Below are positions 11,111-18,936 of a DNA stretch of 64,000 nt, in pieces. The DNA comes from Fimbriiglobus ruber (lineage in GTDB: Bacteria > Planctomycetota > Planctomycetia > Gemmatales > Gemmataceae). The position numbers and the translations under genes are program-made. Location of the stretch: contig NZ_NIDE01000020.1 of assembly GCF_002197845.1 (NCBI RefSeq), positions 543,460 through 607,459 on the forward strand, given 5' to 3'. The notes under the pieces were generated by a model. That model had not been told where the DNA came from and made no database searches. It saw nothing but the letters and a program-made list of their open reading frames with translations. Each line of letters opens with the position of its first letter. The stretch's first letter is position 1.

Positions 11111-12042
11111 GAAACCATCTCAGAAAGTATAATGTACCAGGGCAGGAGGTTACGGGAAATCGCGGAGCGAGTGTATGACGGCGGACAGAGAATCGATCCT
11201 TCCGACGATCTGGGAGGTATCCGATGATTTATGGGCGAGGATCGAACCGATCCTTGCGGCGGCCTGGCCTCGGCGAGACCCCCGTGGTCGGCATCACGCG
11301 GATTGGCGTAGGTGCCTGAACGGGATCATCTACCAGATGCGGACCGGGTGCCAATGGAATGCGTTGCCCAAGGTGCTGGGTGACGACAGCACGGTTCACC
11401 GTTGGTATCAACGCTGGTGTCGCTTGGGTGTGATGGAAAAGATCTGGGCGGATCTGGTCCAGACATGTGATGATCTGGGGCAAGTCCATTGGGACTGGCA
11501 GAGCGCTGACGGGTGCATGGGGAAGGCCCGTCACGGCGGCGACCACATCGGCAAAAACCCAACGGATCGAGGGAAAAACGGGACGAAGCGGAGCATCGTG
11601 GTGGACGAACAGGGTGGACCACTGGGGGTGGTCATTGACGGGGCGAATCGACACGATGCGAAGTTATTGAAGGCGACGATCGAGGCGATCGTCATCGAGC
11701 GGCCGGATCCCAAAGAACACGAGCAACATCTGTGTTTGGATAAAGCGTACGATAATCCGTCCGGCCAGTCTGCGGCGAGTGAGGCCCAATACACCCCTCA
11801 CATCCGCCGAATCGGCGAGGAGAAGACAACGGTCACGGCCAAGCACCCGGATGGCAAGCCGCGTCGTTGGGTGGTTGAGCGTACCCTGAGTTGGCTGAAT
11901 CGTTGCCGAGCCATCTTGGTCCGTTATGCAAAAAACGGAAAGAATTATTTGGGCTTAGTCCAGTTAGCGTGTTCCTTGATCTGGTATCGTAGACTCTTCC
12001 GCCTCAATGGGTTAGGTTGACGCCTATTTTGAGATGGTTTCT
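11111..12042 (+). mobile_element. IS5-family insertion sequence, complete
   Basis: 932 bp bounded by inverted repeats: left GAAACCATCTCA, right TGAGATGGTTTC. It is flanked by TAA at 11108-11110 and 12043-12045, a 3-bp TNA target duplication as in the IS1031 subgroup. It contains one transposase gene and appears intact. Confidence 0.88.
11175..12020 (+). CDS. IS5-family transposase
   Basis: 281 residues, full length. The N-terminal DUF4096-type region reads LWARIEPILAAAWPRRDPRG with GIIYQMRTGCQWNALP. The DDE catalytic domain follows, with the first Asp in WQSADGCMGK, the second in VVIDGANRHD / LCLDKAYD, and the Glu in RRWVVERTLSWLNRCRAI. It would cut and paste its own element. The host gene density on both sides suggests that it landed in an intergenic region downstream of the PfpI-like gene. 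Confidence 0.92.
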   Translation: MTADRESILPTIWEVSDDLWARIEPILAAAWPRRDPRGRHHADWRRCLNGIIYQMRTGCQWNALPKVLGDDSTVHRWYQRWCRLGVMEKIWADLVQTCDDLGQVHWDWQSADGCMGKARHGGDHIGKNPTDRGKNGTKRSIVVDEQGGPLGVVIDGANRHDAKLLKATIEAIVIERPDPKEHEQHLCLDKAYDNPSGQSAASEAQYTPHIRRIGEEKTTVTAKHPDGKPRRWVVERTLSWLNRCRAILVRYAKNGKNYLGLVQLACSLIWYRRLFRLNGLG

Positions 12043-14582: not shown

Positions 14583-14891
14583 CTATTTCGCCGAGACGAT
14601 TTCGATGCGGCACCAGCCGAAGTCCAGAGAAATGGTCTCGCCGATCGAGAAGTACTTCGAGTCAAGGGAGTATTCGACGTGCCGGCCGTGCTTCTCGTTT
14701 ATGACCAATCCGGCTTGGCGGAGAATGCTCAGGTGATGAGAAACGTTGACGATCTCGATATTCAGGTGCCGGGCCAGTTCGGTCACATTCTTCTTGCCCG
14801 TGAGCAATAGTTCAATGATGCGGATGCGGGTCTGCTCGGCGATCGCCTGAACGAGTTCGGCGCAGATCTTCGCATTTTTATGATCGATCAT
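14583..14891 (-). CDS. ArsR/SmtB-type winged-helix regulator
   Basis: 102 residues from the ATG at 14891 (a GTG seven codons earlier is possible). The ArsR fold is clear: ICAELVQAIAEQTRIRIIEL, then the helix-turn-helix GKKNVTELARHLNIEIVNVS followed by HHLSILRQAGLV, and the wing EKHGRHVEYSLD. The metal-binding CVC motif of the ArsR class is absent at the usual recognition-helix position, so it may sense something else. It is likely a repressor of its own or a neighbouring gene, but no obvious target is adjacent. Confidence 0.85.
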   Translation of the reverse strand: MIDHKNAKICAELVQAIAEQTRIRIIELLLTGKKNVTELARHLNIEIVNVSHHLSILRQAGLVINEKHGRHVEYSLDSKYFSIGETISLDFGWCRIEIVSAK

Positions 14892-15562
14892 TTCGCGCGA
14901 GTCCTGTGGCACGTAGCAATGAGTTACGGACGACAGTCCAGGGCGCGGAAGCCGTATCCGAAAAGTAAATTTGTCAGCGACGCTTCGGGCATTTTATTGT
15001 TCCCGAGCGAAACAAAAGCGGATTTACCAGTTTTGCTCCCTCTCGTGCAATCACATCCCCCATCGCTTCGGCACAAACCCTTCCTCCAGATTGATGTCCG
15101 CGAACAGGCTACCCGCCGCTTCTCGCGCGACCGCCCTTTCTTTCACTTTACGTCACGCCGCCGCCTAATCCTTTACACTCCGCGGCTCGTAAGGTTCCGA
15201 CCCCGACCGGCACACTTCACGGTGCGCTCGATCCCAGCTGACGGGCCGCTTCTCGAACGAGCCGTCGCGGCTCGTTCGCCTTTTGAAAAAGCGGCTTTGG
15301 TGAAGATACCGGGGGAGTCGGGCGTCGAAATTTCCCCAGCCCGAATGCCCGTCCGCGGGTGACTACCACACAGGATAAATCGTTCCGGCGTTGAAACTGA
15401 AGCCTTACAACGTCTGGAGACGCGGGCCGCGCCGGAAAAATTGGCTCGCATAAACGCTTAATGCTAGTCTGATGGAAGCTCATAATTTCACTCGACGCAT
15501 GAGCTTATTGTAAGATAAATTTTATTGCTATTATTTCATATTAAAAATAATGGTACTGCCGG
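14892..15562. other. long intergenic region upstream of the sensor kinase
   Basis: About 670 bases without a supported gene. It contains the hairpin at 15254-15278 (11-bp stem CGAACGAGCCG / CGGCTCGTTCG, TCG loop). From 15480 onward there is an AT-rich stretch (ATAAATTTTATTGCTATT...) that contrasts with the surrounding GC-rich DNA and is the best candidate for the promoter of the kinase gene at 15563. Confidence 0.5.
15254..15278. terminator. hairpin in the pre-kinase spacer
   Basis: Perfect 11-bp stem with a 3-nt loop, followed on the + strand by CCTTTTG. Terminator-like, but no transcript obviously ends here. Confidence 0.4.
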
Positions 15563-16993
15563 ATGTGGGATTTTTTGAGTCGGTTGTTCGACCCGACCGG
15601 GTTCCCGCCCCGATGGCACTGCGGAAGCTGGACGCCCGCCCACGGCTGGCTGCATATCCTGTCCGACGCGAGCGTGTGCGCGGCCTACTTCGTGATCCCG
15701 TGCATCCTGACGTATTACTTGCTGCGGCAACGGGGTTGGCCGTTTCGCCGCATCCAGTTGCTATTCGTCGCGTTCATCCTGGCGTGCGGGACGACGCATC
15801 TGATGGAGGCGGTCATCTTCTGGTGGCCCGCCTACCGCCTGGCCGGTGTCCTTAAACTGTTGACCGCCCTCATTTCGTGGGCGACCGTGCTGGCCCTCGT
15901 CCGAGTCACGCCGGAGGTGCTGTCCCTCCGCTCCCCGCAAGAACTGGAAGCCGAGATCGCCGAGCGGAAGCGGGTCGAGGACGCCTTCCGGACGAGCGAG
16001 GAGCGCTTCCGCCACCTGGTCGAAGGGGTGGAGGATTACGCCATCTACATGCTCGATCCGGCCGGGAACATCGCCAGCTGGAATTCGGGGGCGGAGCGCA
16101 TCACCGGGTACAGTTCCGAGGAAGTCATCGGGCAGCACTTTTCCCGCTTCTACCTGCCGGAAGAGATCGCCATAGGCCACCCGCTGCGGGAACTCCGGGC
16201 GGCCGTCTCCGAGGGGCGGTACGAAGAAGAAGGGCGGCGGGTGCGCAAGGACGGCACGGTGTACTGGGCCGTCGTCACGATCACCCCCCTGAACGACCGC
16301 GAGGGCCGCCACGTCGGCTTCGCCAAGGTGATTCGGAACGTCAGCAAGAGGAAGGCGGCCGCGGAACAGATGGAGGCGTCGCTCCGGGAGAAGGAGGTGT
16401 TGCTCAAGGAAATTCACCACCGGGTCAAAAACAACCTGCAGATCATTTCGACCCTGCTCGACCTCCAGTCCGACCACACGACGGACCCGCAAGCCCTGGC
16501 GATGTTTAAGGAGAGCCGGGGGCGGGTGCGGTCGATGGCCCTGATCCACGAACGCCTGTACCGTTCACAGGACATGGCCCGCGTCGACTTTTCCGGGTAC
16601 GTCCGACAACTGGCCGACGACCTCTACCGCGGCTACAAAGCGTTCGGCGACATCGGCCTCGAACTCGACGTGAACGTCCCCCCCCTACCCATCGACGTCG
16701 CCATCCCGTGCGGGCTACTTTTGAACGAACTGATGTCGAACTGCTTCAAACACGCCTTCGCCGACCGACAAACCGGGTGCATTCGGGTGTCGCTGAACCA
16801 GGACGACGGCAAGACCAACGTCCTGGTCGTCGCTGACGACGGCCCCGGGTTCCCCGCCGGCGTCGATTTCCGCGATACAACATCATTCGGCTTGCAGCTG
16901 GTGAACACCCTCGTCCGCCAACTCGGCGGGGAGATCGAATTGATTACGGGACGGGGGACGACCTTTCGCGTCCGGTTCCCCGACAGGAAGTAA
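15563..16993 (+). CDS. histidine kinase with ethylene-receptor-like membrane sensor, PAS and HisKA_2
   Basis: 476 residues. Residues 30-120 form three membrane helices that resemble the ethylene-binding domain of plant ETR1 helix by helix: SDASVCAAYFVIP (Asp35, Tyr42, Ile46, Pro47), FVAFILACGTTHLMEAV (Cys75 and His79, the copper-binding C-x3-H pair) and LKLLTALISWATVLALV (Lys98). A PAS domain follows (about 140-265, NIASWNSGAERITGYSSEE). Then comes a HisKA_2-type phosphoacceptor helix with IHHRVKNNLQIISTLLDLQS (about residue 290) and a HATPase (LLLNELMSNCFKHAF, VADDGPGFP). It is a membrane sensor kinase, 20 bp upstream of the hybrid kinase gene at 17014 and likely cotranscribed with it. Confidence 0.93.
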   Translation: MWDFLSRLFDPTGFPPRWHCGSWTPAHGWLHILSDASVCAAYFVIPCILTYYLLRQRGWPFRRIQLLFVAFILACGTTHLMEAVIFWWPAYRLAGVLKLLTALISWATVLALVRVTPEVLSLRSPQELEAEIAERKRVEDAFRTSEERFRHLVEGVEDYAIYMLDPAGNIASWNSGAERITGYSSEEVIGQHFSRFYLPEEIAIGHPLRELRAAVSEGRYEEEGRRVRKDGTVYWAVVTITPLNDREGRHVGFAKVIRNVSKRKAAAEQMEASLREKEVLLKEIHHRVKNNLQIISTLLDLQSDHTTDPQALAMFKESRGRVRSMALIHERLYRSQDMARVDFSGYVRQLADDLYRGYKAFGDIGLELDVNVPPLPIDVAIPCGLLLNELMSNCFKHAFADRQTGCIRVSLNQDDGKTNVLVVADDGPGFPAGVDFRDTTSFGLQLVNTLVRQLGGEIELITGRGTTFRVRFPDRK

Positions 16994-17013
16994 CCCGAGG
17001 CAGGAACCGGCCG

Positions 17014-18936
17014 ATGTTACCGAGTACCATCCTCGTCGTCGAAGACGATCTGATCATCGCCCGGGGGATCGAGAAGCGGCTGAAGGCGCTCGGGTACCGC
17101 GTGGCCGGGCCGGTGGCGACCGGCGAGGAGGCCGTCCGCCGCGCGGCCGAACTCCGCCCCGACATGATCCTGATGGACATCAACCTCGGTGGCGGCATCG
17201 ACGGGGTCGAGGCGGCCGCGCTGATCCGCCGGCGGTCCGACGTCCCGGTCGTGTTCCTGACCGCCCACTCGGACGACGCCACCCTCCAGCGGGCGAAGGT
17301 GACCGAGCCGCACGGGTACGTACTGAAGCCGTACGAGGACAAAGACCTCTTCACCGCCATCGAGATCGGCCTGTACCGGCACCAGATCAACCGCCGCCTG
17401 CGGGAAAACGAGCGGTGGCTCGCCGCCACCCTCGACAGCATCGGCGACGGGGTGATCGCCACCGACGAGCGGGGGCACGTCCGGTTCATGAACCCGCTGG
17501 CCGAACACATGACCGGGTGGGCGCAGGCCGACGCGGTCGGCCGCGACATCCGGGAGGTGTTTCACATCGTCGGGGCGAAGACCCGGCGGCCGGTGACGAA
17601 CCCGGCCCTCGAAGCGCTGGCGACGGGCGAGCCCACGACCCTCGCCCCGGACACCATCCTGATCGACAGAACCGGCGTGGAGCGGCCGATCGCCGACAGT
17701 GCGGCCCCGATCCGCGAGGTCAACGACGGAATCACCGGGTCGGTTTTGGTGTTCCGGGACGTCAGCGAGCGTTGCCGGCTGGAAGAGAACTTGCGGCAGG
17801 CCCAGCGGATCGAGGCCATCGGAATGCTGGCGGGCGGGATCGCCCACGACTTCAACAACATCCTGACCGTCATTAACGGGTACGGCCAGCTCCTCCTCGA
17901 CGTCGACCTGTCCGAGGCCGACCGCCTGGATTTCGTGCAGAACATCGTTGACGCCGGCAAGCGGGCGGCGTTGCTCACGCAACAGATCATCGCGTTCAGC
18001 CGCAAACAGATTCTCGTCCCGTGCGTGCTCAGTCTGAATTCCGTCGTCCGGGACATCGGGGCGATGATCCAGCGACTGATCGGCGAGAACATCGAGTTCG
18101 TCACGGACCTGGCCCCGGACCTCGGCAACACGGAGGCCGACCCGACGCAGATCGGACAGGTGCTCTTGAACCTGGCGGCGAACGCCCGGGACGCCATGCC
18201 GAAGGGCGGGCGGTTGGCCGTCGTCACGTCGAACGTGGAATTGGACGAAAAAACGATTCCCCAGTACGCAGACCTGAAGCCGGGCCGGTACGTCCTGTTG
18301 TCGGTCACGGACACCGGGTGCGGAATGACCGACGAGGTCCTGGGTAAAGTCTTCGAGCCGTTCTTTACCACCAAGGGCGTCGGCCAGGGGGCGGGCCTCG
18401 GGCTCGCCACCGTGTACGGGATCGTGAAGCAGAGCGGGGGGCACATCGAGGTGTCGAGTCGCGTCGGCGAGGGCACGACGTTCCGGGTCTTCCTTGCCTT
18501 GGTCGACGAACCGCCGGCCGCCGCGGGCAACCGGGACGCCCAGCAAGCCGCCAGGGGGCACGAGACCATTCTGCTCGTCGAAGACGAGGCGGCGGTGCGA
18601 AAAATGACGAGCGACGTTCTCCGGCGGAACGGCTACGCGGTGCTGGAAGCCGCGGACGGGCTGGAAGCGGTGGCGGTCGCCGGGGAATACGCCGGGCCGA
18701 TCCACCTCGTCATCACCGACCTGATCATGCCCAAGATGTCCGGCCGCGAGGTGGCCGAGCAACTGGCCCATTCAAAGCCCGGAGCGCGCATCCTATTTAT
18801 GTCGGGGTACACGGAAGACGTCGTGGTGCGGGAGGGGGTCAAGACGGCGACCGTCGACTTCCTGGGCAAGCCATTCACCTTCGCCGACCTGACGCAAAAG
18901 GTGCGAGAAATTCTCGACCGCCCGACGGGCCAATGA
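17014..18936 (+). CDS. REC-PAS-histidine kinase-REC hybrid
   Basis: 640 residues, soluble. Order: receiver 1 (1-125, phosphoacceptor Asp near 55 in MILMDINLGG, Lys in YVLKPYED), PAS (about 130-250, DERGHVRFMNPLAEHMTGW), HisKA with GGIAHDFNNILTVINGYGQL, HATPase (VLLNLAANARDAMPKGG, DTGCGMTDEV, GAGLGLATVYGIVKQSGG), receiver 2 (515-640, VITDLIMPKMSG, FLGKPF). The kinase core is the NtrB/'blue-light-like' class. The first receiver probably accepts phosphate from the ethylene-receptor-like kinase 20 bp upstream, so the pair would form a phosphorelay. No DNA-binding output domain is present. Confidence 0.93.
   Translation: MLPSTILVVEDDLIIARGIEKRLKALGYRVAGPVATGEEAVRRAAELRPDMILMDINLGGGIDGVEAAALIRRRSDVPVVFLTAHSDDATLQRAKVTEPHGYVLKPYEDKDLFTAIEIGLYRHQINRRLRENERWLAATLDSIGDGVIATDERGHVRFMNPLAEHMTGWAQADAVGRDIREVFHIVGAKTRRPVTNPALEALATGEPTTLAPDTILIDRTGVERPIADSAAPIREVNDGITGSVLVFRDVSERCRLEENLRQAQRIEAIGMLAGGIAHDFNNILTVINGYGQLLLDVDLSEADRLDFVQNIVDAGKRAALLTQQIIAFSRKQILVPCVLSLNSVVRDIGAMIQRLIGENIEFVTDLAPDLGNTEADPTQIGQVLLNLAANARDAMPKGGRLAVVTSNVELDEKTIPQYADLKPGRYVLLSVTDTGCGMTDEVLGKVFEPFFTTKGVGQGAGLGLATVYGIVKQSGGHIEVSSRVGEGTTFRVFLALVDEPPAAAGNRDAQQAARGHETILLVEDEAAVRKMTSDVLRRNGYAVLEAADGLEAVAVAGEYAGPIHLVITDLIMPKMSGREVAEQLAHSKPGARILFMSGYTEDVVVREGVKTATVDFLGKPFTFADLTQKVREILDRPTGQ

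Follow-up and report, generated by a model that had tools for sequence, protein, structure and literature searches.

A two-gene operon of Fimbriiglobus ruber, a planctomycete described from a Sphagnum peat bog, probably encodes a bacterial sensor kinase of the ethylene-receptor type together with its own phosphorelay partner. Because the ethylene-binding domain (EBD) is common in Planctomycetota and the closest tested relative of the kinase is AzoEtr1 of Azospirillum brasilense, the protein is a bacterial ethylene-receptor kinase rather than an import from plants. The genes lie in a stretch of 64,000 nucleotides, hereafter the window, within an assembly of 12.364 Mb, and their features are listed in Table 1.

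Results

The gene pair and its domains

A preliminary description of this DNA had placed the two open reading frames on the same strand with 20 bp between them, the first encoding a membrane part followed by PAS and HisKA_2 domains and the second a REC-PAS-HK-REC hybrid, and both the ORF calls and the Pfam matches agree with this layout. It had also put forward comparison with an ethylene-binding profile as a check, and the match to Pfam ETR1_N proved to be strong, with 111.5 bits where the gathering score is 27 (E 2.5e-32), values at which a chance origin is excluded. The EBD is fused to a histidine kinase in which the histidine and ATP-binding motifs are present (HisKA_2 5e-30 and HATPase 3.1e-13, with a motif check). 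The kinase core resembles PhyK (NCBIfam, 2.3e-38), residues 4-122 of the hybrid match the PhyR model and residues 247-635 match NCBIfam CckA (6.7e-128), each of these matches being below the curated cut-off.

Table 1. Features of the sensor kinase and hybrid genes, in window coordinates
Feature	Position	Strand	Basis
Sensor kinase gene, 476 aa, EBD-PAS-HisKA_2-HATPase	15563..16993	+	ORF and Pfam
Ethylene-binding domain (EBD; Pfam PF25487, ETR1_N), residues 27-122, three predicted membrane helices	15641..15928	+	Pfam 2.5e-32; AF2 helices
Asp35 (= ETR1 D25)	15665..15667	+	Alignment with AzoEtr1 and 60 planctomycete EBDs
Cys75-x3-His79, predicted Cu(I) ligand pair (= ETR1 C65/H69)	15785..15799	+	Alignments; ligand role: PMC6586836, PMC11819568
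Lys98 (= ETR1 K91, output-linked)	15854..15856	+	Alignments; role: PMC11819568
PAS domain of kinase, residues 147-258	16001..16336	+	Pfam 6.3e-16
HisKA_2 dimerisation/phosphoacceptor domain, residues 283-356, HHRVKNN from 285	16409..16630	+	Pfam 5e-30; motif positions
HATPase_c catalytic domain of kinase, residues 385-475	16715..16987	+	Pfam 3.1e-13
Hybrid partner gene, 640 aa, REC-PAS-HisKA-HATPase-REC	17014..18936	+	ORF and Pfam
N-terminal receiver of hybrid, residues 6-117, acceptor Asp55, predicted HisKA_2 kinase target	17029..17364	+	Pfam; PhyR-model match; motif positions
PAS domain of hybrid	17422..17763	+	Pfam 2.8e-11
HisKA (His278) and HATPase_c of hybrid, CckA-like	17824..18501	+	Pfam; NCBIfam CckA
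C-terminal receiver of hybrid, acceptor Asp569, boundaries approximate	18568..18918	+	Two Pfam Response_reg stretches; motifs at 522, 567, 617

No output domain, whether DNA-binding or enzymatic, was found in the kinase or the hybrid, and comparison of the operon with Rfam showed no regulatory RNA. Scans for promoters and terminators yielded nothing usable, their counts being near those of shuffled sequence. Upstream of the kinase lie a divergent gene for an ArsR-type regulator at a distance of about 650 bp (window 14583-14912, minus strand) and, some 3.5 kb away, one for an IS5-family transposase (window 11175-12020, plus strand).

Binding residues and predicted fold

In ETR1, a cysteine and a histidine of helix 2 hold Cu(I) and the copper binds ethylene, with D25 and K91 coupling binding to output (PMC6586836, PMC11819568). 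By alignment, ETR1 residues D25, Y32, I35, P36, I62, C65 and H69 correspond to D35, Y42, I45, P46, I72, C75 and H79 of the window kinase, and all are present. The residues that had been named as defining the domain thus stand in the cases of D35, Y42, C75, H79 and K98, but the isoleucine and proline given as Ile46-Pro47 are actually I45 and P46. Comparison of identical alignment columns in 61 planctomycete EBDs collected by profile, the window's included, showed the aspartate in 61/61 and the tyrosine, isoleucine, proline, cysteine and histidine in 60/61 each, and the equivalent of K98 is kept in 59/61; only the second EBD of the window's own genome departs at the binding positions.

An AlphaFold2 model of the EBD, computed from a five-sequence alignment and of modest confidence (pLDDT 73, pTM 0.57), places helices at residues 25-55, 61-85 and 89-121. 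The first carries D35, Y42, I45 and P46, the second C75 and H79, and the third K98, which is in keeping with the earlier claim that each key residue lies inside a matching helix. The fold had likewise been named as a check on the cysteine-histidine pair, and in the model the two residues are one turn apart on their common helix. With this and the strong profile match, neither of the results that the preliminary description had named as refuting was obtained. Neither sequence nor profile comparison matched the EBD to a solved structure.

Altered domains in the same group

The second EBD protein of the window's genome is encoded on contig C4 (L140:5178-8213, minus strand) and comprises 1011 residues with the layout ETR1_N-DUF4118-PAS-HisKA. 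In its EBD, the positions of Y, I, P, C and H are occupied by C, L, S, V and V, respectively, and Asp35 and Lys98 are kept. Another genome, G485, holds an EBD with isoleucine in place of the cysteine, and the two altered domains cluster in the EBD tree (94/91). At the G485 locus (L208, G485:C4:86000-104000), an intact EBD gene and the Cys-to-Ile one are about 8 kb apart. The residues of the altered EBDs rule out copper binding of the known kind and make these domains natural negative controls.

Distribution and descent of the domain

PF25487 was found above cut-off in 42/392 genomes sampled across Planctomycetota and in 35/95 genomes of Gemmataceae. HisKA_2 occurs in 0/20 other planctomycete EBD proteins sampled and HisKA in 17/20, so the HisKA_2 form is a minority among planctomycete EBD proteins. 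In the EBD tree, which has 132 columns, 86 rows and many weak forks and from which plant sequences were left out, nearly all planctomycete EBDs form their own branch, split from six cyanobacterial and proteobacterial ones (100/99). Within it, the EBDs of the window and of the relatives G479 and G417 make up one clade (100/87), with that of G455 apart.

A recent origin from proteobacteria was rejected, since the tree sets the planctomycete EBDs apart. Recent transfer from cyanobacteria was rejected as well: the best full-length match outside the family, L062, filed under Brasilonema bromeliae, is probably contamination, its contig having 70% G+C and a coverage of 3 and its EBD falling inside the planctomycete EBDs. 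Two further placements deserve mention. A MAG filed as Akkermansia muciniphila contains an EBD protein (L071:5618-6181) that stands among the planctomycete EBDs and is a candidate for either a wrong bin label or transfer, and three planctomycete EBDs of family f47 (L003, L004 and L006) cluster with proteobacterial ones (99/97), a grouping that is a candidate case of gene transfer.

A co-inherited cassette with exchangeable sensors

The best matches of the hybrid were sought in 95 family genomes and the upstream region was examined for 31 of them. Of the hybrid orthologs, 25/31 have a related HisKA_2 kinase as their immediate upstream neighbour, at most about 200 bp away, and at a 26th locus (G479) the EBD kinase and the hybrid are separated by a REC-PAS-GGDEF gene; an upstream HisKA_2 kinase was not found at 5/31 loci, and many of the relatives are draft genomes, so that in some cases a neighbour may seem to be missing where a contig ends. 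Pairwise distances of kinases and hybrids are correlated with a mirror-tree r of 0.89, compared with a maximum of 0.40 over 2000 permutations (n=27), a correlation that reflects shared descent of linked genes too and not contact alone. Kinase and hybrid are a co-inherited two-gene cassette in Gemmataceae, and the conserved adjacency and co-inheritance lend support to the initial proposal of an EBD sensor kinase adjoining its hybrid partner.

The N-termini of the cassette kinases vary, comprising DUF4118, MASE1, REC-PAS-GAF, multi-PAS and EBD types (Pfam-checked for ten kinases; two of the four MASE1 tree labels, L190 and L192, were assigned by eye). EBD and cassette occur together in the window, G417, G479 and G455, and these four EBD cassettes are not one clade on the kinase and hybrid trees. 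At least two exchanges of sensor have thus taken place on the cassette. That the EBD-bearing cassette kinases form a single clade was not supported, with four changes for four rows and 0% of bootstraps with one. As the EBDs of the window, G479 and G417 are one clade, an ancestral EBD that was later lost from some cassettes and replaced there is as good an account as repeated gain, with G455 as a separate pairing.

The intervening gene of G479 (L181:5722-7053, G479:C172; GGDEF 1.5e-45) follows the EBD-HisKA_2 kinase and precedes the hybrid, and in its REC-PAS half it matches the hybrid in type. We would guess that, with a diguanylate cyclase in the operon, c-di-GMP and attachment are one output in this relative. 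The window's genome also holds a hybrid paralog, 65% identical, without an adjoining HisKA_2 kinase (L177, G000:C17:1668495-1670405).

Discussion

EBDs have been reported in cyanobacteria and proteobacteria with widely varied output domains (PMC7700396) and have also been ascribed to "other bacterial phyla" (PMC11819568). AzoEtr1, encoded on a plasmid of A. brasilense Sp7 (L171:3001-4578; the recovered protein has 525 residues, the published length), has an EBD 38.7% identical to that of the window, with D35, Y42, I45, P46, C75, H79 and K98 numbered identically, and likewise consists of an N-terminal EBD, PAS and then kinase, with a receiver gene just downstream. Its residues 1-130 bind ethylene, and D35A and C75A forms have been tested (PMC11819568). 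The two systems differ in the kinase core, which is HisKA in AzoEtr1 and HisKA_2 in the window, and in the partner, AzoRR-etr1 being a stand-alone receiver of 135 aa whereas the window encodes a hybrid of 640 aa. SynEtr1 (slr1212) of Synechocystis PCC 6803 is a further bacterial EBD kinase, paired with slr1213, for which signalling by phosphotransfer to a response regulator has been reported (PMC11819568); according to literature descriptions, however, it receives two signals, ethylene and light, and has other middle domains and another downstream regulator.

The plant receptors ETR1 and ERS1 have an ethylene-binding domain with the essential residues, but signal mainly without histidine-kinase activity, to a Ser/Thr kinase (PMC11819568). 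The HisKA core of the ETR1 subfamily is absent from the window kinase, which has HisKA_2 and no Pfam HisKA match, and its EBD is followed by PAS at residues 147-258 and by no GAF match. Plant ethylene receptors carry GAF, not PAS. The label of a plant ethylene-receptor-like sensor overstated the oddity of the protein, as EBD kinases of cyanobacteria and proteobacteria are published and such proteins are widespread in Planctomycetota.

Phosphotransfer may be compared with the PhyK-PhyR and CckA systems, to which the kinase core, the first receiver and the kinase half of the hybrid are respectively alike, although all three matches are sub-threshold. An anti-anti-sigma part is missing, and the pair is therefore not the general stress pathway. 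PhyK-type HisKA_2 kinases phosphorylate PhyR-type receivers. We propose that the three-helix N-terminus dimerises in the membrane, where Cys75 and His79 would hold Cu(I) and Asp35 would position the histidine, and that the copper binds a small olefin, most likely ethylene. The signal would pass from helix 3, with Lys98, through PAS to the HisKA_2 kinase, whose autophosphorylation at the HHRVKNN box it would alter; if ETR1 and SynEtr1 are a guide, the effect of ethylene is probably a drop in kinase activity. Phosphate would then be transferred to Asp55 in the N-terminal receiver of the hybrid, which would set the CckA-like HisKA/REC half. That the first receiver of the hybrid takes the first step is suggested by the combination of PhyK-like core and PhyR-like receiver, and the CckA-like second half makes it likely that the relay continues to a phosphotransfer protein whose gene is unlinked.

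Conserved residues are no proof that the ligand is ethylene. They fix a Cu(I) site and not the identity of what it binds, so that a copper-bound sensor of the EBD fold might naturally respond to another alkene, CO, oxygen or copper itself; the wide occurrence of EBDs in planctomycetes, many of the sampled groups having no known plant contact, would fit such a role, and no ethylene-related gene was seen adjoining the kinase-hybrid pair. Nevertheless, all ethylene-essential residues are kept, including I45, P46, I72 and Y42, which are not ligands, and ethylene binding has been shown for the EBDs from plants, from a cyanobacterium and from A. brasilense that were tested (PMC11819568), which makes a different natural ligand unlikely. 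It is far harder to believe that the EBD has become a relic membrane anchor for the kinase that no longer binds ligand. Such loss does occur, as seen from the second EBD of the window's genome, devoid of the Y, I, P, C and H residues, but every key residue is kept in the window EBD and in the closest ones, those of G479 and G417.

Each of the three families, of kinases, hybrids and EBDs, is large, and the true partner could lie elsewhere. An intact EBD kinase might signal mainly to receivers other than the adjacent hybrid, for example to a REC-PAS-GGDEF protein such as that of G479, where this gene comes before the hybrid, and the window's genome does contain orphan hybrids, among them the paralog on C17. 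We consider this improbable in view of the immediate adjacency at most loci and the parallel kinase and hybrid trees, and an ethylene-receptor-type kinase paired with the neighbouring hybrid is the reading that we prefer. More tentatively, Gemmataceae planctomycetes may sense ethylene via an EBD on a conserved cassette of HisKA_2 kinase and CckA-like hybrid whose sensor is repeatedly exchanged, alongside a small parallel EBD lineage that lacks the copper cysteine and must sense something else or nothing.

Our literature search, outside which key subscription-journal surveys fell, returned no paper that joins ethylene receptors and planctomycetes in substance. This kind of receptor is already known in bacteria and, with published surveys reporting bacterial EBDs with many output domains, the finding was to be expected; what is uncommon here is the kinase core and the partner. 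The cassette allows one kinase-hybrid pair to be compared under four sensors, a comparison by which the input of the sensor and the output of the kinase could be told apart. For soil bacteria that are not photosynthetic, the demonstration of ethylene sensing is recent and concerns Azospirillum, and a planctomycete receptor with all binding residues, whose domain is present in about a third of the family, would, if functional, extend ethylene sensing to another phylum.
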